Below are positions 16,847-27,985 of a stretch of DNA of 41,551 nucleotides, in pieces. Position numbers and translations under genes: made by a program. The DNA comes from Chloroflexota bacterium (GTDB lineage: Bacteria; Chloroflexota; Anaerolineae; Anaerolineales; Anaerolineaceae), in contig JAAZKE010000005.1 of assembly GCA_012799995.1 (NCBI GenBank), positions 1-41,551 of the forward strand. Direction: 5' to 3'. The notes under the pieces are model-generated. The model was not told the origin of the DNA, did not search any database, and worked only from the letters and a program-made list of their open reading frames with translations. How positions within the stretch are numbered: position 1 is the stretch's first letter; every line of letters begins with the position of its first letter.

Positions 16847-17131
16847 TCAGCGCTTCCTGGACGCAAGGACGTATGCAATGTACTGGTTCAGGCTTACCCC
16901 TTGTGTTTTCGCCTCTAAAGATAAATCGCGGTGCAGATTCTTGGGAATACGGACGTTGAGCTTGCCGCTGAATTCTCTTTCCTTGAGTATTTTGTCTAAT
17001 GATCGGTATTCGCTGGCTTTGCCTGCTGCCATATCTGCATCATATTCGTCTAATATTTTCTGTTCCTCTGCGGTTGGCTCTATGACTGGCACGCCTGCCA
17101 GCTTTTCTAGTAATCTCTCTGCTTCATTCAT
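16847..17131 (-). CDS. HicB-like ribbon-helix-helix antitoxin
   Basis: A 94-aa protein. The C-terminal third, FSGKLNVRIPKNLHRDLSLE followed by GVSLNQYIAYVLA, is the Arc-type ribbon-helix-helix DNA-binding module found in HicB-family antitoxins. The N-terminal 55 residues are acidic and probably form the toxin-neutralising part. It starts 13 bases after the stop of a RelE-like toxin gene, with AGGAG at good spacing. Such antitoxins bind the toxin and repress the shared promoter. The toxin-first order is the reverse of classical relBE. No other DNA-binding partner is visible, so this is the antitoxin by position and domain. Confidence 0.88.
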   Translation of the reverse strand: MNEAERLLEKLAGVPVIEPTAEEQKILDEYDADMAAGKASEYRSLDKILKEREFSGKLNVRIPKNLHRDLSLEAKTQGVSLNQYIAYVLASRKR

Positions 17132-17144
17132 GGTATTGCTCCTA

Positions 17145-17390
17145 TCATTTGTAAATGTCTGTTCTTGTGCCTATTTTGATTATTCGGATGACGTTTGCTT
17201 CTTTGTCAATCGCGAAAATTGCCCGATAATGAAATATTTTATACCTGAATTGATTTTTCTCGTTTCCATACTTCTGGATATCTCCCTCACCGTTCAAAAT
17301 ACCTTCAAACATTCTTTCGAATCTTTGTTGAACGTTTGCGGGGCATTTGGAAAAATACTTCTGGGCCTGTTTGCTAAGTTCTATTTTCAT
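17145..17390 (-). CDS. RelE/ParE-family toxin
   Basis: An 81-aa basic protein beginning MKIELSKQAQKYFSKCPANV, with the C-terminal block FRYKIFHYRAIFAIDKE and IIKIGTRTDIYK characteristic of RelE/ParE toxins (conserved Arg and Tyr at the C-terminus). RelE-type members cleave mRNA on the ribosome; ParE-type members poison gyrase. The sequence alone does not settle which. AAGGA lies 8-10 bases before the ATG. It is the first gene of the pair, followed by a HicB-like antitoxin, and sits at the edge of a foreign island next to phage and IS debris. Confidence 0.9.
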   Translation of the reverse strand: MKIELSKQAQKYFSKCPANVQQRFERMFEGILNGEGDIQKYGNEKNQFRYKIFHYRAIFAIDKEANVIRIIKIGTRTDIYK

Positions 17391-17449: not shown

Positions 17450-17566
17450 ATGACTAAAACAGAAATCTGCCCACAAAAGAAACAGGAGGACTTCCTGATA
17501 TCCAACACGGATATCTGTATCATTGGCGGGGGTGCTGGAGGAGGCAAGACGCTCGGGATTTTTTAG
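17450..17566 (+). pseudogene. Phage terminase large subunit, N-terminal fragment only
   Basis: ATG with AGAGG seven bases upstream opens a 38-codon frame that ends at TAG 17564-17566. Its last part reads ICIIGGGAGGGKTLGIF. This is the Walker A region of phage large terminases (GG-A-GGGKT preceded by a short N-terminus ending in a hydrophobic strand). A complete terminase is about 400-550 aa, so more than 90 percent is missing. At base 17560-17566 the sequence switches directly to IS30 transposase homology in another frame. The rest of the terminase is not found after the IS remnant, so this is a deletion or recombination scar, not a simple insertion. Confidence 0.75.
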
Positions 17567-18327
17567 ACCCTCTACGCTATAAAAAAGTGAAACAGGGATG
17601 GTCCCCCAAAGCTATTGGCGAAAGGTTGATAATCGATTATCCTCAGGACATGTCCATGCAGATTTCACACGAAGCGATTTACCAGTACATTTATGTCTTG
17701 CCACGTGGAGCTTTGAAACAAACCTTGATTGAAGGATTGTGACAGGAACGCAAGTATCGTAGAGTGCAAAAAATGGGGCAGCACGAGGAAACACGAGGGA
17801 AAATCAGCGGTATGCTGTCTATCGAAGAACGACCAGCGGAAGTAGAAGACAGAAGTGTCCCTGGTCATTGGGAAGGCGATCTCATACTGGGCAAGTACAA
17901 ACGCAGTGCGCTTGGCACTCTGGTGGAGAGAACAACACGATATACTATTTTAGTGCCATTGGGAGAGAAGAAGGGCGCTGAAAGCGTTCGTATTGCCTAT
18001 GCTGAAGCCTTCAAGGACGTGCCTGAAGCTTTGAAAAGGAGTCTGACCTATGATCAACGGAAAGAAATGAGCCAGCATGAGAAGTTCACCATTGACAGTG
18101 GCATCCAGGTTTAATTTGCACATCCATCTTCACCCTGGGAACGTGGCACAAATGAAAATACCAATGGATGAGTCAGACAATATTTTCCCAAGGGAACAGA
18201 TTTTAGCCAGATTACCGATGAAAGGATCAAAGAAGTACAGGATTTATTGGATGACCGCCCGAGAGCGGTATTAAACTATTACAAACCTGATGAAGTGTTT
18301 AATAACCTTGTTGCACTAAAACTTTGA
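17566..18327 (+). pseudogene. IS30-family transposase remnant, 5'-truncated with three nonsense codons
   Basis: One continuous frame from about 17566 to the TGA at 18325 encodes the C-terminal two-thirds of an IS30 transposase. It contains VKQGWSPKAIGERL, then VPGHWEGDLILGKYKRSA (first catalytic Asp), TYDQRKEM (second Asp; the family has DQGKEM) and PWERGTNENTNG (catalytic Glu). The N-terminal helix-turn-helix portion is gone. The frame carries stops at 17740 (TGA, probably from CGA), 18112 (TAA, where the family has Tyr) and 18169 (TGA, where the family has Leu), with no frameshift. It is a dead element. I could not define terminal inverted repeats; the left end is lost at the terminase junction. 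The right end is probably within 20-30 bases of the stop. Confidence 0.9.
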
Positions 18328-18381: not shown

Positions 18382-20799
18382 ATGAACAAAGATTTCATAC
18401 AACGTTATTCAGAAATAATAGAAAGCAGAATTGGATTGAATCATTCTACTTATGAGAGTTTAAACTCTTTTTATTCAGAATTATCTGATCTAATACTCAA
18501 ATCATCAGAAGAAGATATGATCCTATCTGTGAACATCTTACTTGATTGTATGAATCGAATCAGCAGCATCTTCCCGGATATAAGTGATTCTAAACCATTA
18601 TCCTCAATATTATCCACACTACTGCAACTAAATAAACCTTCTGTTTTAGCAGTGTTAAGTAACGATATAGTTCTTAAAACGTTTAAGAAAAAAAACATGG
18701 GGTTTGCAGAGAACTATAATAATAGCAGTAACCTCTATAGAGGATTTGCAAATTTAATTATATATAACAGACGGATAAATGATTATCAGAAAATCGATTT
18801 TATTCTATCACTAATACCAAGGACAAACTTACCATTTATTCTTCTGGAATTCTTGAAAGAGAACAAGTCAAAAATACCAAAAAATAAAAATCTCTATCAA
18901 ATACTGAGAATACATATAAATACTGTATCAGACCCAGACACTCATGCCAAACTGGAATTAATGTTAGAATGGGCGACTAAAACTCCAACTGAAATAAAAA
19001 CAGATAGCAAGAGAATTATAAGTGAGCAATTAGCAGTTCTTGAAAAAGTTTCACTTTTTAAAACTCCAGAGACATTTTTCTTTCAAGCTAATAAAATAAT
19101 TGGTCGTAATTTTCAATTGATGGAAACAATATGCAAGTATATATATATAAGGTATGCTCCAGATACGTTGAATAAAGACCAATCCTTATCTGTTTTTCTG
19201 GCAATACGAAAAATAATTCTCTCTCTTCAGAAGAACAGAAAGATATATGAATTTATTACAACATTTCCCGACATCATCGTTTATGCGTTAAAAAAATATA
19301 ACCCTCTTGATTATTCGCAAGAAGATTATCTCACTAGCGAAACCCCAGTAAATTATCAATTTAAATTTCTCAGTTTAGCCATTGATAATAATAATTCACA
19401 GCTTCTTGATAGTTATTTACACTCTCTCTCACAAAATAAGTTTGTTCTGACTTTGGACAGCACTTATAAATTAATTGCCTTTGAATATTTGGCCTATGGA
19501 AAAATTATTAATGAATCGATGATGAATATTATAAAAAAATGGATAGACTATCTCGATCCCATTTATAGGAAAGAGTTTATTTTTTTTATTGAACCTAATG
19601 AGATTCAATTAGAAAAATGTCTATCTTATATATCCGCTTTTCAAATAATGGAAGGAGACTACTTGGAAAGGCGGGACGATGAGAGTATATTTATTCAAAC
19701 TGTAAATGAATATTGGCAATTAATGCGTAAGAAACCAGATCATCTACTGTTGATTTTAGATGCCTTATTTAAGAAAGTTGATGTTTACAAGAAAAAGATT
19801 ACATCAAAATATGAATCATCAATCCATTACATATCGTCTTTTGAGATGGAGATTAGAGATACAAGTATCCGTATCCTTTCGGTACTTTTTGAAAATTTTG
19901 ATTGTAGAACAATATGTAAAATGATTTTTTCGAATTTAGTGTTATCTGCAAATATTTCAGATTTATTTGCAGAAAATGAGATCACCTATCAAAACAGTAT
20001 GCCTTGGGAATTCGAAGTCATGCTAGAAAAAAAATATGTAGAAAAACAGTTTCTTGATGATGAGAGTTTTCTGGAATTTGGCAAGCTTCTGACCAATATG
20101 CAAGATAGAGATCTTACTATATATGAGGTAGTAGATAGGCTTTTATTTGTTCCCGATAATCTAAATATCAATATTTTGAGGATTCGATTGTCTTTATTAA
20201 ACATTTGGAATTCAAAGGATCATCGATGTGTTTCCAACAAAAGCAAATCATTACTAATATACAAGATACTTCAAAACCAATCTTCTGGTAAATGGCGATT
20301 TTTATCTGGCAACTTTTACAATTGCATTCTATATTCAATTTTATCAATTTTTCCCACTGATCCGCATCTTGCTTCAGAGTTAGTCAGTGATGTTTTACCA
20401 TTAATAGAGAACAAAAAGCGAGCACTCGACTCTTTTTTTACTCTCATGGATATTTCTGATTTTATAGCTTTCGTTATGTCCAACGAGCTATTGTTAAATA
20501 TATTAATTTCTACAATAAAGGGATATCAGACGTTTCAACAAACTGTTTACAAACTGATTCAGAAGGAATCGTATTTCTACATAGATAGTATTATTTCTTA
20601 TGCTATTGAGGATTCTGCTGTTTCGGAGGAAGATATCTGTACCATACTTATAAAAACAATCAACAAACTTTGGAAAGAAAACGTTTTAACCCAAGACAAT
20701 CTTAGTTATCTTCATTCGTTATCGGGAAAATTATCTAGCACTATTTTCAGAGATAAACTTAAAAATTCATTAGATATATATACCGAAAGGATAAATTAA
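18382..20799 (+). CDS. Large all-helical protein of unknown function, partner of GHKL-nuclease protein
   Basis: An 805-aa protein that I cannot assign to a family. It has no signal peptide, membrane segment, Walker motif, metal-ligand cluster or nuclease motif that I can see. The whole length is rich in Leu, Ile, Phe, Asn, Ser and Lys with regular amphipathic spacing, suggesting a long alpha-solenoid scaffold, perhaps HEAT- or TPR-like. GGAG lies 5 bases before the ATG. The next gene begins 3 bases after its stop, so the two are one operon. Base composition is much more AT-rich than the flanking core genes, and it sits directly behind terminase and IS30 debris, so recent transfer is likely. 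By analogy with other two-gene defence modules it may be a sensor or scaffold for the downstream ATPase-nuclease; that is inference. Confidence 0.85.
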   Translation: MNKDFIQRYSEIIESRIGLNHSTYESLNSFYSELSDLILKSSEEDMILSVNILLDCMNRISSIFPDISDSKPLSSILSTLLQLNKPSVLAVLSNDIVLKTFKKKNMGFAENYNNSSNLYRGFANLIIYNRRINDYQKIDFILSLIPRTNLPFILLEFLKENKSKIPKNKNLYQILRIHINTVSDPDTHAKLELMLEWATKTPTEIKTDSKRIISEQLAVLEKVSLFKTPETFFFQANKIIGRNFQLMETICKYIYIRYAPDTLNKDQSLSVFLAIRKIILSLQKNRKIYEFITTFPDIIVYALKKYNPLDYSQEDYLTSETPVNYQFKFLSLAIDNNNSQLLDSYLHSLSQNKFVLTLDSTYKLIAFEYLAYGKIINESMMNIIKKWIDYLDPIYRKEFIFFIEPNEIQLEKCLSYISAFQIMEGDYLERRDDESIFIQTVNEYWQLMRKKPDHLLLILDALFKKVDVYKKKITSKYESSIHYISSFEMEIRDTSIRILSVLFENFDCRTICKMIFSNLVLSANISDLFAENEITYQNSMPWEFEVMLEKKYVEKQFLDDESFLEFGKLLTNMQDRDLTIYEVVDRLLFVPDNLNINILRIRLSLLNIWNSKDHRCVSNKSKSLLIYKILQNQSSGKWRFLSGNFYNCILYSILSIFPTDPHLASELVSDVLPLIENKKRALDSFFTLMDISDFIAFVMSNELLLNILISTIKGYQTFQQTVYKLIQKESYFYIDSIISYAIEDSAVSEEDICTILIKTINKLWKENVLTQDNLSYLHSLSGKLSSTIFRDKLKNSLDIYTERIN

Positions 20800-20802
20800 T
20801 TC

Positions 20803-22833
20803 ATGTTATCAACTGCTATAAAAAGGATCAGCAATGAGTTTCTCGAAGAAGCAAAGCAATCTCCAAATTTATTTGCCGATATGGCCTCTATGGAAACTTA
20901 CTTGGCTGAGAGTTATGGCGAAAGGATCTTGATAGAATTGTTGCAAAATGCTGATGACGCTGCTTCAAAAAATGTATCACTGTTGATAACAGATGACACC
21001 ATCTTCTTTGCTAATGATGGACGCCCATTTTCAGAGGAAGATATAATTTCTATTTGCCGATCCGGAGCAAGTAAGAAAAAACGTGGGGAAGAAATCGGGT
21101 TCAGAGGAGTTGGATTCAAAAGCACAACAGCCCTATCAACACAAATAATTATTGCATCGAATGATGCCTTTTTTACGTTTTCAAAAAATAAATGTTCTGA
21201 AATTTTACAGACTGATTTATCAAAGGTGCCGACAGTCAGAATTCCTTTTAATTTAGATAAATCTGACCTAGAAATTGATATTGTCCGCAAAATAGATCAA
21301 TTATATTCTAGTGGATTTACGACTGTTTTTATTTTTAAAAACTCTGAGATATCTATTATCGAACAAGAACTACGTTTGTTTGACGCAAATTATTTGTTAT
21401 TTCTCCGAAATATTAAAACAGTAAATGTGGACATAGAAAACAAAAAGAAATATTATTCAATAAAGCGGGAATCGGACAATAATGGGACTATTGCAACACT
21501 ATCCTCCAACGATCAACTTGTTCAATGGTGGTTACCTTTTCTTCATGGGCGTCATTCCACTGCATTTAAAATAAATGAGAAAAACGAAGTAATCGCGTGT
21601 GGTTCCGGAGAATCTGTTTTTCATTGCTATCTACCTACACTAGAGTCCTGTCCATATCAATTAAAAATGAACGGAGATTTTTCAACCGACCCATCTCGTA
21701 AACATCTAATTATTGATGTAAACACCAGAAACACGCTTAAAACCATATCCGAAGACCTCCTTGAAATCGTTCAAATGATAATAAAAGGCGAAATTGCATA
21801 TACAGAGATATTAACATTCCTAACAACAAGAAGTTCATTCTCCACAATTTCTTCCACATTCGCTGATCAATTCGAAAATGCTTTGCGTCAATCAGTTCAA
21901 ATATTACTACACAGTCAACAGATCACAACAATAAATAAATATATGCTATTAGATTCGGAATTTTCAATAGAGGAAAAATTGTTTATTCGGAAATATTGCA
22001 TGCATTTTACCTCTTCATCTGCAGTAATTACTGATTCTAAAATAGAAGGTTTCTTCGATTATTTTGGAACGCAATTCTATTCGCTTAATGACTATTTATA
22101 TTTATTATTGGAAGAAGGGTTTGTAAAAAAATGTTCCATAAAGTTATTCGGGAAAATATTCGGGTATGTCATAAAAAGGATTAGAATGTCTACTATAGGA
22201 AGGAAAGATGGTTTTCTAATACAAGATGCATTTATAAAAACTACCGCTGAAAAAGTAATAATGGTTTCTGAGATTACACCACAAATAAAATTTTCCTCTG
22301 AAGTAATTGAGGCAATTTGTTCATATATTTCATCAGGTGATTGGGATTGGTTTTGTAAAACCAATAAAATTAAGAATGATTCTCTTTTTATAAACAACGT
22401 AGCAAAGGGTATTCCACCTGCGAAAACAAGAGAAAAGAAAGCTGCTATCGCATTTGTCTCTCGATGGCGTTCTGCTGAGCAGCAATGTATAGATGTTGAA
22501 GAGGCGCTTGGGAACACAGCAGTTTATGTTGGAAATAGAAACTTGGGATATGACATAGAAAGCAAAACAAAAGATGGAACTATGCGATATATTGAAGTAA
22601 AACTTATTCAACCTGGCTCAGGAAACTTTACGATGACAAACAATGAATATACATCAGCGCATAAATATGGCAAAAGTTATTTCATATATGCGATTACCCA
22701 ATTAGATGATGGAATACGAGTCACACTTATCAATAATCCCATAGAATCTCTTTCTCTTGAGAAAAGAGTCAAACAGTGGGAATGGTATTGCAATTCCTTT
22801 ACACGAGAAAACATGGACTTTCTCTATGAATAG
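20803..22833 (+). CDS. GHKL (sacsin/Hsp90-like) ATPase fused to DUF3883 PD-(D/E)xK-type nuclease domain
   Basis: A 676-aa protein. The N-terminal domain has the Bergerat-fold boxes: ELLQNADDA (N49 and an Asp), FFANDGRPF (71-76) and GFRGVGFKS (99-107). The arrangement is that of sacsin/NO VEIN-type and Hsp90-like ATPases. A central part of about 350 residues is unassigned. The C-terminal domain has GYDI (D584), YIEVK (E598, K600) and TNNEYTSA with SYFIYAI, the pattern of DUF3883, a PD-(D/E)xK-like fold. It is probably cytoplasmic and acts on nucleic acid under ATP control. It follows the 805-aa gene by 3 bases, in the same AT-rich island. Domain calls are strong; an anti-phage role is inferred from domains and location. 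I cannot match the pair to a named system. Confidence 0.9.
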   Translation: MLSTAIKRISNEFLEEAKQSPNLFADMASMETYLAESYGERILIELLQNADDAASKNVSLLITDDTIFFANDGRPFSEEDIISICRSGASKKKRGEEIGFRGVGFKSTTALSTQIIIASNDAFFTFSKNKCSEILQTDLSKVPTVRIPFNLDKSDLEIDIVRKIDQLYSSGFTTVFIFKNSEISIIEQELRLFDANYLLFLRNIKTVNVDIENKKKYYSIKRESDNNGTIATLSSNDQLVQWWLPFLHGRHSTAFKINEKNEVIACGSGESVFHCYLPTLESCPYQLKMNGDFSTDPSRKHLIIDVNTRNTLKTISEDLLEIVQMIIKGEIAYTEILTFLTTRSSFSTISSTFADQFENALRQSVQILLHSQQITTINKYMLLDSEFSIEEKLFIRKYCMHFTSSSAVITDSKIEGFFDYFGTQFYSLNDYLYLLLEEGFVKKCSIKLFGKIFGYVIKRIRMSTIGRKDGFLIQDAFIKTTAEKVIMVSEITPQIKFSSEVIEAICSYISSGDWDWFCKTNKIKNDSLFINNVAKGIPPAKTREKKAAIAFVSRWRSAEQQCIDVEEALGNTAVYVGNRNLGYDIESKTKDGTMRYIEVKLIQPGSGNFTMTNNEYTSAHKYGKSYFIYAITQLDDGIRVTLINNPIESLSLEKRVKQWEWYCNSFTRENMDFLYE

Positions 22834-23406: not shown

Positions 23407-23483
23407 GAATAAAAATGAAATATTTTACGTATATAGAAACGAACCTGTTTAAACGAAGTGAAACGACAGCAAAGGAAAAACAA

Positions 23484-25127
23484 ATGAAATCTATCGGAAA
23501 ACGGTCAACAATCTGGATGCTTATAATCCTTTTGATAATTACATCGCTGAGTGTAAGCTGCACACAAAAAAAATCTTCCAGCCCGCTTTCAGGCGATAAA
23601 GTGATCGAAGCGTCCAACGCAAAAGAAACGCTCAAAATCGTATCAGGGTCCGAAAACAAAATTCTGGAACCTATCCTTAATCAATTCAGCAAAGAGAAAA
23701 AAATCAACATCGTTATTGATTACAAAGGATCGTTGGATATCATGCGCCTGTTAGAGGCGGATGTGGTTGAATACGACGCAGTCTGGCCAGCTTCCAGCCT
23801 GTGGATTTCTGTAGGTGATTCTCGCCATCGGGTGAAGCACATGCAGTCAACATCGATTACCCCGATTGTTTTCGGAATCCGTCACAGCCTGGCAGAACAG
23901 CTCGGATTCATTGGGCGTGATGTCAAAGTCTCTGAGATCTTGCAGGCGATTGAGAAAAAACAATTGAAGTTCACCATGACCTCGGCAACGCAATCCAACT
24001 CCGGCGCCAGCGCTTATATCGGTTTTATTTATGCGCTGCTTGGCAACCCTGACATTATCACCTCAGAGGACCTGGACAACCCTGCACTGAAACAGGACCT
24101 GACGAATCTCCTGTCGGGTGTGGAACGATCATCCGGCAGTTCAGACTGGCTGAAAGATCTTTTCCTGGCTGGGAATTTCGACGCGATGGTCAATTATGAA
24201 GCACTGGTTATATCCGCAAACCAGACACTGGAAAAAGAAAAGCGCGAAACGCTTTATGCAATTTACCCGGTAGATGGTTTGATGATCGCTGATTCGCCGC
24301 TCGGTTTTATTTCTCAAAATGGCGTTAAAAACCGGGATGAGAAGAGCAAAGAAGAAAGTTTTCTGGAACTGCAAAAATACCTGATGAGCGACAAAGTGCA
24401 GGCAGAAATACAAAAGACTGGACGTCGGACCGGATACAGCGGTGTAGATGCTTCCAACAAGAATATATTCCGTGCGGATTGGGGAATCGATACAAACCGC
24501 ATCCTCTCTACCATCAACATGCCCAAATCTGATGTGCTGCTCAAAGCCTTAAATGCCTATCAATCCGAATTCAAAAAACCCGGTTACAACGTTTACGTGC
24601 TTGACTTTTCTGGCAGCATGAGTGGGGATGGGCATGAGCAATTGATGGCTGCTCTTGAGCAGGTTATGAAGCGAGATCTTGCAGCCAAAAACTTCTTGCA
24701 GGCTTCTGATAACGAAATCAATCGTGTGATTCTGTTCAACGACAGCATCATCTTTGACAAGACCAGCAAAGGCAGTAAGGAATTCGAAGATGTTTTCGGC
24801 AAAATAAAGAAGGTCTTCCCCCAGAACGGGACAGCTCTCTACACAACAACGATTAAAGCATTGAACGATCTGAAGTCCGTTGATTTTTCACAATATTCAC
24901 CGGCAATATTATTGCTCACGGATGGGAAAAACAATGGAATCGATAGTCTGAGAGACCTTAAAAGGTTTTATGAAGACAATGGTTTTTCCGTTCCGATTTT
25001 CTCAATTTTATTTGGAGATGCGGATGATCAGGAACTGGAACAGATCGCTGAGTTTTCAAAGGCGCGCGTTTTTGACGGACGGAAAGATTTAATCAACGCA
25101 TTCAAATCGGTCCGCGGATATAACTGA
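23484..25127 (+). CDS. Lipoprotein with solute-binding domain fused to a VWA domain
   Basis: A 547-aa exported lipoprotein. The signal peptide ends in the lipobox LSVSC (Cys26). Residues about 45-360 form a periplasmic-binding-protein-like domain (TLKIVSGSENKILEPIL, FTMTSATQSNSGASAYIGF). Residues about 369-547 form a VWA domain with an intact MIDAS: DFSGS (374-378), the threonine in NGTALY (about 450) and TDG (about 479). The frame is open 23 codons further upstream, but the ATG at 23484 follows AAAGGA and gives a normal signal peptide. First gene of an operon with an XpaC-like protein, a second binding protein and TelA. Tel-type operons act in toxic-anion and envelope-stress resistance; the ligand is unknown. 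No transporter permease accompanies it. Confidence 0.9.
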   Translation: MKSIGKRSTIWMLIILLIITSLSVSCTQKKSSSPLSGDKVIEASNAKETLKIVSGSENKILEPILNQFSKEKKINIVIDYKGSLDIMRLLEADVVEYDAVWPASSLWISVGDSRHRVKHMQSTSITPIVFGIRHSLAEQLGFIGRDVKVSEILQAIEKKQLKFTMTSATQSNSGASAYIGFIYALLGNPDIITSEDLDNPALKQDLTNLLSGVERSSGSSDWLKDLFLAGNFDAMVNYEALVISANQTLEKEKRETLYAIYPVDGLMIADSPLGFISQNGVKNRDEKSKEESFLELQKYLMSDKVQAEIQKTGRRTGYSGVDASNKNIFRADWGIDTNRILSTINMPKSDVLLKALNAYQSEFKKPGYNVYVLDFSGSMSGDGHEQLMAALEQVMKRDLAAKNFLQASDNEINRVILFNDSIIFDKTSKGSKEFEDVFGKIKKVFPQNGTALYTTTIKALNDLKSVDFSQYSPAILLLTDGKNNGIDSLRDLKRFYEDNGFSVPIFSILFGDADDQELEQIAEFSKARVFDGRKDLINAFKSVRGYN

Positions 25128-25128
25128 G

Positions 25129-25743
25129 ATGAACAATAACAGACAGACTATCTTTGCCACAATCTCCTCAGTGGCAGCTTTCATCGGGTTGAATTTCATT
25201 GTTGAGTGGCCAATTATCATAGCTGCGCTGCTCTCAATCGGTATTTTTGCCGGTGTTTATATGATCAGTAAGCCCAAACTGAAAATTGGGAATCTGGATC
25301 TGGACTCATTGAAAAATGGCACCGAGATTCGGTTTCTACTTCAAGAGGCAGAGCAGGATCTGATTTCAATTGGCGAAGTCAGCAAGAAAATTGACAATCC
25401 TGTCATAAAAACGAATGCCGAGTCGCTTTTCGATACCGGGGTGCGCATTCTGAATTACCTTTCTGAAAACCCTGATCAGATCTCAGCTGCCAGACGATTT
25501 TTTGGCTACTACCTCAATACCTCCCGTAATATTCTTGAAAAATATCTTACCGTACAAAAAGCCAAATTGAATTCGGCTGAAATCAATAATATAAAAGCAG
25601 CAACGGAAAAAACGATTCCAATGTTGAACATTGCTTTTGATCGTCAGTTCGAAAATCTGATGAAAAATGACATCCTTGATATTGAATCTGAAATCAAACT
25701 GCTTGAAACCAATTTAAAAATGGAAGGCATAGAAAAAACATGA
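25129..25743 (+). CDS. XpaC-like membrane protein of TelA operons
   Basis: A 204-aa protein. Two closely spaced membrane helices lie at about residues 7-25 and 27-45, joined by a very short turn. They are followed by a cytoplasmic helical domain (about 55-200) ending IPMLNIAFDRQFENLMKND and IESEIKLLETNLKMEGI. This layout and C-terminus resemble the XpaC family (annotated historically as 5-bromo-4-chloroindolyl phosphate hydrolysis protein), which is regularly found beside TelA. It starts 1 base after the stop of the VWA lipoprotein and overlaps the next gene by 4 bases (ATGA). True biochemical activity is unknown; it probably forms a membrane-associated complex with TelA. Confidence 0.78.
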   Translation: MNNNRQTIFATISSVAAFIGLNFIVEWPIIIAALLSIGIFAGVYMISKPKLKIGNLDLDSLKNGTEIRFLLQEAEQDLISIGEVSKKIDNPVIKTNAESLFDTGVRILNYLSENPDQISAARRFFGYYLNTSRNILEKYLTVQKAKLNSAEINNIKAATEKTIPMLNIAFDRQFENLMKNDILDIESEIKLLETNLKMEGIEKT

Positions 25744-26831
25744 ACAAACGAAAATCATCGATAAGCAGAAAAAGCTCTATTTGGATCGGTCTTGTGATAC
25801 TTCTCCTGGTGATTGGCGGAAGTTTTGCTTATCAATATTTTCAATCAGCCAACCAGCCTCCAATAGTTATTCGTGGCTATGTAGGGGGCGAAAAGATCAA
25901 CTTTCTGGAAAATCCGAAGGTCAGGAAAATTCTGAAAGACCGATACAGGATTGAGGTCGATTCCAACAAAGCCGGATCATTGGACATGGTTCGCGCTAAC
26001 CATACCGGTTATGATTTCCTCTTCCCCTCTAATCAGACTGCGCTGGAACTTTATATAAATACAATTGGACCAACCCATAAAGATGACATTATCTTCAACA
26101 CCCCGATCGTGCTGTATACCCATAAACTGATCGCTGATGCGTTGATGAATGAAGGACTGGTAACAAAATCCGGCGAAGTTTTCCAAATCGACATGCTGAA
26201 ACTGGTTAGTTATCTGAAAGAAGGAAAATCGTGGGCGGATGTAGGCATACCACAGCTATATGGTGCGATGACAGTCGATACAACTGACCCTGCAAAGTCA
26301 AATTCCGGGAACATGTTTGCCGGATTGGTAGCCAATCTGCTCAATAATGGTCAGGTTGTCACAGCTCCTCAGGTAGACAAGATCTTACCGGATTTGACAA
26401 ATATATTCGTAAAACTCGGATATATGGAAACATCTTCTTCAGATCTGTTCAGCCAGTTCCTCAAGACCGGGGTTGGGGCAAAACCGATTATCGCCGGATA
26501 CGAGAGCCAGCTGCTTGAATTTTCAAAGATGGAGCCCGCTGCCTGGGAGGAAGTCAAGGATGATTTTGTCATCCTTTACCCGGTACCAACAGTCTGGTCA
26601 ACTCATATCCTGATCGCACTCAACGCTCAGGGAGAAACACTGATGGGGGCATTGAAAGACGCTGAGATTCAAAAGATCGCCTGGGAAGACCATGGCTTCA
26701 GAACAGGTGTGTATGGCTCTGGAAGCAGTTTAAAGACCTTTTCTGTGCCAGGATTGGCAGGAAATATCACACAAATCATTCAAATGCCCAGTTACCGCGT
26801 GATGGAAACGATTATTCAATCATTTGAATAA
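25740..26831 (+). CDS. Membrane-anchored solute-binding-like protein
   Basis: A 363-aa protein with a basic N-terminus (MNKRKSSISRKSS), one membrane helix at about 14-31 without a lipobox cysteine, and an extracytoplasmic binding-protein-like domain. VIRGYVGGEKINFLENPKV at the start of the domain and PAKSNSGNMFAGLVANLL later parallel the solute-binding half of the first gene (TLKIVSGSENKILEPIL, TQSNSGASAYIGFIYALL). The two operon members are therefore distant homologues. No ABC permease or ATPase lies next to it, so import is unlikely; sensing or scaffold function within the TelA system is more plausible. It overlaps the XpaC-like gene by ATGA and is 29 bases before telA. Confidence 0.85.
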   Translation: MNKRKSSISRKSSIWIGLVILLLVIGGSFAYQYFQSANQPPIVIRGYVGGEKINFLENPKVRKILKDRYRIEVDSNKAGSLDMVRANHTGYDFLFPSNQTALELYINTIGPTHKDDIIFNTPIVLYTHKLIADALMNEGLVTKSGEVFQIDMLKLVSYLKEGKSWADVGIPQLYGAMTVDTTDPAKSNSGNMFAGLVANLLNNGQVVTAPQVDKILPDLTNIFVKLGYMETSSSDLFSQFLKTGVGAKPIIAGYESQLLEFSKMEPAAWEEVKDDFVILYPVPTVWSTHILIALNAQGETLMGALKDAEIQKIAWEDHGFRTGVYGSGSSLKTFSVPGLAGNITQIIQMPSYRVMETIIQSFE

Positions 26832-26860
26832 TCGTTATTAATACTAAATTGGAGAAAACA

Positions 26861-27985
26861 ATGGCACAGGAAATTAATTTGGCTGAATTAGCCGCCAGTA
26901 AAGCAAGATTCGAACCAGTCAAAGAAGAAAAAATGGAAATTCAACCGATTGCCCCGGATCGGGAATTTACCAATGATGAACTGGCAAAAATTGAGGAATT
27001 GAAGAACAACATCAACCTCCTCAACTCACAGGGACTGCTGATTTATGGTGTCGGTGCGCAACGAAAGATCACCGACTTCGCCGATTCAATTCTGAAAAAA
27101 GTTCAAGCGAAAGATGCCGGGAACGTCGGTGAGGTGATGACCGATCTTCTGGTTACAGTACAAAGCCTTGATATTGATTCGCTTTCAGAAAAAGAAACGA
27201 TCTTTTCCAAGTTGCCCTTTATGAACAACCTCAAGCGATTCATGGCAAAATACCAGACCATTGAAGGACAAATTGACAAGATTGAGTTGTCACTTGACCA
27301 GTCTCGAAATATGCTGCTGAAAGATATTGGCATGTTCGATATGCTTTATCAGAAAAATGTCGAATACTTTCATGAGCTGGATTACCTGATTGTCGCAGGT
27401 GAAGAGAAAATCAAGGAAGCGCGTGAGGAAGTTCTGCCGAAGCTGACTGAAGAAGCCAGGCAAAAGAATGATCCCATGTCGATTCAGCTTGTGCATGACT
27501 TTGAAGACACAATTAACCGGTTTGAGAAAAAGGTGCATGACCTGAAACTGAGTAAAACAATCGCAATGCAGACTGCTCCTCAGATTCGCCTGATCCAGAA
27601 CAATGATAAGGCGCTGGTCGATAAGATTCAAACCGCGATCCTCAATACAATTCCTCTCTGGAAGAACCAGATTGTGATTGCGCTGGGGCTTCAGAATCAG
27701 GATGATGTGCTCAAAATGCAGCGGAAAATCAATCAGACTACGAATGACCTGCTCTTGAAGAACGCTGAAATGCTGAAACAGAATACCATTGAAGTTGCAA
27801 AAGAAAGTGAAAAAGGAATCGTCGAGCTGGATACGCTCAAAAAAGTCAATACCGATTTAATTGAGACAATTGAAGAAACAATGAAAATTCATAAAGAAGG
27901 ACGTGCAGCAAGACAAAACGCAGAACTTGAATTGGCAGCAATCGAGAGCCGATTGAAAGATACACTATTACAAACCGGAAAATAA
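26861..27985 (+). CDS. telA: TelA-family toxic anion resistance protein
   Basis: A 374-aa, almost entirely helical cytoplasmic protein of the TelA/KlaA family. Recognisable blocks are MNNLKRFMAKYQTIEGQIDK, KDIGMFDMLYQKNVEYFHEL, KTIAMQTAPQIRLIQNNDK and IPLWKNQIVIALGLQNQ, which are the conserved core of the family. The start is the ATG at 26861 with GGAG seven bases upstream; a TTG four codons earlier overlaps that ribosome site and is unlikely. TelA homologues are associated with tellurite and other envelope stresses, but the molecular function is unsettled. Last gene of the operon, followed by a strong hairpin. Confidence 0.95.
   Translation: MAQEINLAELAASKARFEPVKEEKMEIQPIAPDREFTNDELAKIEELKNNINLLNSQGLLIYGVGAQRKITDFADSILKKVQAKDAGNVGEVMTDLLVTVQSLDIDSLSEKETIFSKLPFMNNLKRFMAKYQTIEGQIDKIELSLDQSRNMLLKDIGMFDMLYQKNVEYFHELDYLIVAGEEKIKEAREEVLPKLTEEARQKNDPMSIQLVHDFEDTINRFEKKVHDLKLSKTIAMQTAPQIRLIQNNDKALVDKIQTAILNTIPLWKNQIVIALGLQNQDDVLKMQRKINQTTNDLLLKNAEMLKQNTIEVAKESEKGIVELDTLKKVNTDLIETIEETMKIHKEGRAARQNAELELAAIESRLKDTLLQTGK

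Follow-up and report, generated by a model that had tools for sequence, protein, structure and literature searches.

Within a 41,551-nucleotide stretch of an Anaerolineaceae genome (Chloroflexota; hereafter the window), we identified two adjacent genes that look like a two-gene form, so far uncatalogued, of an established type of phage defence, given that a companion gene is always found beside the enzyme gene in relatives from other bacteria. The explanation towards which we lean, and which we judge reasonably likely, is that the pair represents a horizontally acquired two-component system directed against phages (or mobile elements), in which a partner protein would activate an ATP-gated nuclease. 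A two-gene defence system had been proposed in the original prediction, and that proposal is upheld with respect to the reality of the unit, its ATPase-nuclease homology and its genomic context, although the enzyme has a catalogued relative and the partner proves to be variable.

The upstream partner gene, P0001 (18382..20799, plus strand), encodes an 805-aa all-helical protein, a probable alpha-solenoid without a family match, while the downstream effector gene, P0002 (20803..22833, plus strand), encodes a 676-aa protein with a GHKL/Hsp90-like ATPase and a C-terminal NOV_C (DUF3883) domain. Both open reading frames lie exactly where they had been predicted, with 3 bases between the stop of P0001 and the start of P0002 by their ORF coordinates. 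The AT-richness previously remarked on relative to core genes is evident both in the GC profile of the window (0.29-0.34 across 18-23 kb versus 0.45-0.52 leftward) and in GC3, which is 0.28 in both genes compared with 0.52-0.60 in core genes of the window. The debris reported upstream is also real: at the left edge (17450..18114, plus strand) are a 38-codon N-terminal terminase remnant, IGGGAGGGKTLG (17450-17566, plus strand; identity judged by eye), and an IS30-type rve fragment (17764-18114, plus strand), and a HicB-family antitoxin gene adjoins a ParE-family toxin gene left of the pair (16847-17390, minus strand), a mixed toxin-antitoxin pairing. Immediately to the right lies an operon (23415-27985; GC 42-44%) encoding a solute-binding and VWA protein, a 204-aa protein, a 363-aa protein, by its sequence perhaps another binding protein, and TelA (match 4.5e-111). 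Among congeners, the block up to and including infA is conserved and the DNA beyond infA differs, with none of the window genes from 16.3 kb onward found in the congener stretches fetched (only two of which exceed 5 kb). Since congeners diverge to the right of infA and lack these genes in the stretches fetched, the pair occupies a variable, acquired segment; its horizontal acquisition is evident from the low GC3, the absence in congeners, and the placement of this genome's two copies of the system on different branches of the effector tree. In one congener (L101:723-5379), the region beyond infA comprises many tandem ORFs repeating FQSTLPTWGAT and NFNPRSPRGER, which resemble the translated product of a long CRISPR array.

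Homology supports the earlier assignment of P0002 as a predicted ATPase-nuclease. Pfam searches identified NOV_C (E=4.6e-15, aa 566-641), SACS (2.9e-9) and HATPase_c_3 (3.8e-5), and the NCBIfam sacsin ATP-binding domain was matched at 9e-23. The four motifs previously read in the protein (QNADDA, NDGRPF, GFRGVGFKS and GYDI..YIEVK) are all present, and are not chance occurrences given the NOV_C, SACS and sacsin-domain matches and the end-to-end alignment of P0002 with relatives from other phyla at 34-45% identity. Across the 14-15 relatives aligned, GHKL motif I, E45-L-L-Q-N49-A-D-D-A53 (20935..20961, plus strand), is invariant at E45, Q48, N49, A50, D51, D52 and A53; motif II, N71-D72-G73 (21013..21021, plus strand), at N71 and G73; and the motif III lid, G99-F-R101-G102-V-G104-F105-K106 (21097..21120, plus strand), at G99, R101, G102, G104, F105 and K106. 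By family analogy, E45 would serve as the general base and N49 as a metal ligand. D72 of the NDG motif, put forward earlier as a mutagenesis target, is a poor choice because it is not conserved, its place being taken by Asn in four sequences of a nine-row alignment.

The NOV_C nuclease core (aa 556-644; 22468..22734, plus strand) was delimited from Pfam, the AlphaFold model and Foldseek, and its predicted elements within the whole P0002 model (H556-568, E572-575, E585-588, E594-602, E609-612, H613-625 and E626-634) follow an alpha-beta-beta-beta-alpha-beta type order. Predicted PD-(D/E)xK residues are invariant across the same 14-15 aligned proteins, namely the acidic D584 (22552..22554, plus strand) and, within the ExK motif E598-V-K600 (22594..22602, plus strand; on core strand 594-602 of the model), E598 and K600. 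The model as a whole has a mean pLDDT of 84.9 and returned Foldseek matches to Hsp90/TRAP1 and sacsin SR1. A nuclease fold at the C-terminus had been anticipated; the predicted topology and a match to a viral NO VEIN C-terminal (NOV_C) protein (Foldseek TMt 0.51, rmsd 3.8) are in keeping with it, although the C-terminal sequence profile hit no solved structure. DUF3883 has been described as a novel restriction-endonuclease (REase) domain (PMC3710099). From the NOV_C match, conserved residues and predicted topology, we infer a PD-(D/E)xK-type nuclease at the C-terminus, and homology, invariant catalytic residues and fold together support the notion of an ATP-driven clamp that would carry it.

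Among PADLOC models, the best match of P0002 was TmtA of Tiamat (PDLC03964 and related models), at 6.3e-61 over aa 5-456, the best stretch covering positions 12-483 of the 1538-position model, with an additional C-terminal stretch; against a further TmtA model (PDLC03969), aa 558-648 correspond to positions 1394-1488. Two Tiamat positive controls, L083 and L084, covered positions 12-1515 (E=9e-251) and 9-1534 (E=0), respectively. Aligned directly to L083, P0002 corresponds to residues 2-345 and 1409-1454, skipping roughly 900 internal residues. Thus the two have in common a TmtA-type N-terminal GHKL ATPase, a middle region and a C-terminal NOV_C/DUF3883 domain, but TmtA models span 1302-1782 aa as a single protein, and P0002, at 676 aa, falls into a separate clade with 100/100 support. 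Each relative in the helical-partner clade of P0002 has a partner gene upstream, whereas L083 and L084 are each encoded by one long gene. Tiamat is defined as a single-gene system. Since the pair is neither full-length nor single-gene in this sense, we file it as a variant beside Tiamat, and the original statement that it matches no named system requires qualification: a close catalogued relative exists, of which just both ends of the model are covered. The notion of a split Tiamat, with P0001 representing the missing middle of TmtA, was not supported (shuffle z -0.2 to 3.6). Our PADLOC version dates from 2023, and a newer catalogue could already list the pair; open-access literature on DUF3883, GHKL, sacsin and Tiamat yielded no description of it, nor did the literature searched yield a mechanistic study of Tiamat, itself listed by defence finders.

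Further systems share parts of this architecture. The sacsin-type ATP-binding domain is shared with sacsin and plant NO VEIN, after which the C-terminal domain family is named; these are giant eukaryotic proteins with other modules. The NOV_C domain also matches the PADLOC models PD-T4-1 (2.4e-6), HmaA (1.8e-6) and PDC-S36; with the defence proteins PD-T4-1 and Hma, only this C-terminal domain is alike, HmaA being a helicase. Gabija shows a similar two-gene ATPase-nuclease logic, but GajA combines an ABC/OLD-type ATPase with TOPRIM and GajB is a UvrD helicase. GHKL ATPases of the MORC/paraMORC type are known from restriction operons (PMC2292703). In VcSduA (Shedu type I-D, paraMORC3), a GHKL ATPase precedes a PD-(D/E)xK-type nuclease in one protein; this fusion protects V. 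cholerae and is proposed to be an ATP-controlled nuclease (PMC12137116). The VcSduA nuclease is DUF4263, however, whereas P0002 carries NOV_C and gave no hit to DUF4263 up to E=1, and the passages of that report consulted describe no helical partner gene. VcSduA and GrwAB were set aside as identities, belonging to different families, and by analogy the pair may operate in the manner of VcSduA and comparable GHKL-nuclease defence proteins without being a Shedu system.

The original description of P0001 as all-helical is backed by its AlphaFold model (46 helices, no strands), which is of low confidence (mean pLDDT 63.6, from a two-sequence alignment). No Pfam, PADLOC or NCBIfam family matched above threshold; partial matches to NACHT (E=0.01) and FlgB (0.014) were rejected, being far below curated cut-offs, with a model that is helical only. 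Foldseek matches of the model to importin, SF3b and Rif1 are those of generic solenoids (TM scores <=0.30), and were taken to suggest a solenoid-like shape. By sequence, the 795-aa partner of the Chakrabartyella locus (L044) is a very diverged homologue of P0001, alignable over its full length (BLASTP 21% over 838 columns, E=2e-5; shuffle z=18), and the effectors of these two loci are 45% identical versus about 21-24% for their partners. No match to either long partner was found in plasmids by tblastn, and P0001 was detected in none of 60 related genomes except its own.

A total of 14 further full-length relatives of P0002 were found, including a second one within the same genome (39% identity), one on a Planococcus lenghuensis plasmid (37%), and others in six Bacillota genomes or MAGs, further Bacilli-sample genomes and one viral contig. 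These were recovered by alignment-based scans where single-protein pattern scans gave no relative, whether with P0002 on viral and genome contigs or with P0001 or the L044 effector on viral contigs; among 400 Chloroflexota genomes there was no other full-length effector copy. In agreement with the co-occurrence expected for a two-gene unit, a same-strand gene for a helical protein lies directly upstream of the effector at 12 of 12 loci of a clade that extends across phyla (the window, L033, L039-L045, L053, L054 and L061; hereafter the helical clade), in most cases overlapping it or no more than about 70 bases away, and with a gap of 250 at L040. A protein of about 805 aa is not a constant of this unit; the partner is size-variable and replaceable, measuring about 200 aa in nine of the 11 relatives (196-213 aa in L033, L039, L041, L042, L043, L045, L053 and L061) but reaching 684 aa in L040 and 795 aa in L044. 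An in-frame stop divides the L054/L068 partner into pieces of 110 and 93 aa, while the effector frame remains open. The small partners constitute one family (leave-one-out profile search, E 4e-10 to 2e-75), and the N-terminal start of the 684-aa partner corresponds to the small-partner domain (hhalign E=3e-6). No partner protein tested scored above cut-off against Pfam or PADLOC, and no DNA-binding domain was recognised in those examined. Homology between long and small partners gained no support from hhalign, shuffles or profiles; with no sequence link between the two kinds, we assume a shared role on the basis of position.

Phylogenetic reconstruction placed the window effector with that of Chakrabartyella (100/100). 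This genome's second copy of the system (L039:5939-8641, contig 24), which has a 212-aa partner, groups with Acetivibrio (support 84/80). This ruled out a recent duplication, and since the two copies lie on different branches they most likely represent separate arrivals, each acquired independently. A sister effector clade was also identified, comprising L055, L056, L057 and, by context, L078/L080 (locus pairs L055/L069, L056/L070, L057/L071 and L078/L080), in which the upstream proteins are 104-443 aa in length, unrelated to the helical partners, and beta-rich as judged by eye; two of them were tested and matched no Pfam or PADLOC family. One sister-clade effector, in L080/L081 (G1266), is apparently split, with its N-terminal half on C26 and its NOV_C end on C11, owing either to a break in the assembly or to a rearrangement.

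Relatives of the pair have defence genes as neighbours and are carried on mobile elements. Within about 8 kb of each locus, neighbours in the helical clade include GmrSD/HEC-06, KAP/PifA and PDC-S41 (L054/L068), PDC-S20 (L042), PDC-S32 (L033) and a DNA cytosine methylase (near L044). In the sister clade they include Gabija GajA (1e-232) and GajB (1e-179), which adjoin the effector relative inside a Tn7-like element (L069), a PDC-S37 helicase-nuclease with PDC-S26 nearby (L070), and an adenine-methylase-like gene (near L071). Resolvases were found in L041 and L042, and integrase-like or resolvase ORFs, judged by eye, in L067 and L071; one pair is borne on a plasmid with IS66, and another on a viral contig (L061), where it follows an amidase gene.

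Taken together, the effector may be viewed as a short Tiamat-like enzyme in which the GHKL/Hsp90-like ATPase at the N-terminus, together with the middle domain, would dimerise as an ATP-closed clamp that bears the predicted PD-(D/E)xK-type nuclease (NOV_C/DUF3883) at its C-terminus. The helical product of the upstream gene would contact this enzyme as its activation subunit; most likely it would recognise a sign of infection, either foreign DNA or a phage protein, and transmit it to ATP-driven closure of the clamp and thereby to cleavage of nucleic acid, in the simplest case invader DNA. That activation is set by the partner is supported by its constant pairing with the effector, the tight spacing of the genes and the fast turnover of partners. 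Further, given that the effector is retained whereas its partner varies rapidly in both sequence and size and is wholly replaced in the sister clade, the partner probably sets specificity.

Two other defence readings were weighed, and we regard each as rather unlikely. The pair might constitute a toxin-antitoxin-like module, the GHKL-NOV_C protein being a self-toxic nuclease directly inhibited by the helical protein, whose loss or displacement on infection would lead to abortive infection. The partner gene does come first, close to or overlapping the effector (-8, 0, 1 or 3 bases) in the usual antitoxin order, and partners diverge fast and are around 210 aa in most relatives; yet within their range of 196-805 aa, those of 684-805 aa are very large for an antitoxin, and the stop-split partner beside an open effector at L054/L068 is something a strict antitoxin would not tolerate, though the pieces could still work. 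Alternatively, in a modification-dependent, type IV-like restriction system, a HEAT-type solenoid would bind DNA or its modification and load the ATPase-nuclease onto the invader without self-toxicity, a scenario that we consider similarly doubtful. It is consistent with the GmrSD neighbour in L068, the DNA methylase near L044, the GHKL ATPases (MORC/paraMORC) of restriction operons (PMC2292703) and the protection conferred by the VcSduA fusion (PMC12137116), but the conserved unit includes no methylase or specificity gene, and the partners examined contain no recognised DNA-binding domain.

That the effector is simply Tiamat, a one-gene system with an incidental neighbour, appears very improbable: TmtA is its best PADLOC match and the true Tiamat genes L083 and L084 stand as single long genes, but an incidental neighbour is difficult to reconcile with a partner at all 12 helical-clade loci across phyla, or with a separately branching effector (100/100) from which about 900 TmtA residues are missing. 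Least credible is a role outside defence, in which a sacsin/Hsp90-like protein would act in protein quality control or stress and its NOV_C domain would be inactive. The resemblance to Hsp90, TRAP1 and sacsin found by Foldseek would fit such a role; the invariance of D584, E598 and K600, the patchy presence, the mobile elements, the defence-gene neighbours, and the lack of another full-length copy in 400 Chloroflexota genomes all argue against it.

Building on the preferred reading of a partner-activated, ATP-gated nuclease, we tentatively propose a modular form of immunity, an extension that is conceivable but that we hold less firmly, in which a short Tiamat-like ATPase-nuclease would be combined with exchangeable, unrelated activators (small helical, 795-805-aa solenoid or beta-rich), each responding to its own cue, such that an upstream swap would re-aim the effector; P0001 might then represent an undescribed receptor family. 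If the partner decides what is sensed, these natural partner swaps make specificity directly testable. A half-sized Tiamat relative comprising ATPase, nuclease and a separate companion also offers a tractable model for the control of nucleases by sacsin/Hsp90-type ATPases, and the present analysis brings to light at least three partner families without a name in the libraries searched. Finally, the viral proteins with the best fold match to the P0002 model were phage RIIA lysis-inhibition proteins, which are GHKL-type ATPases, suggesting a possible structural kinship between this predicted defence protein and phage RIIA.
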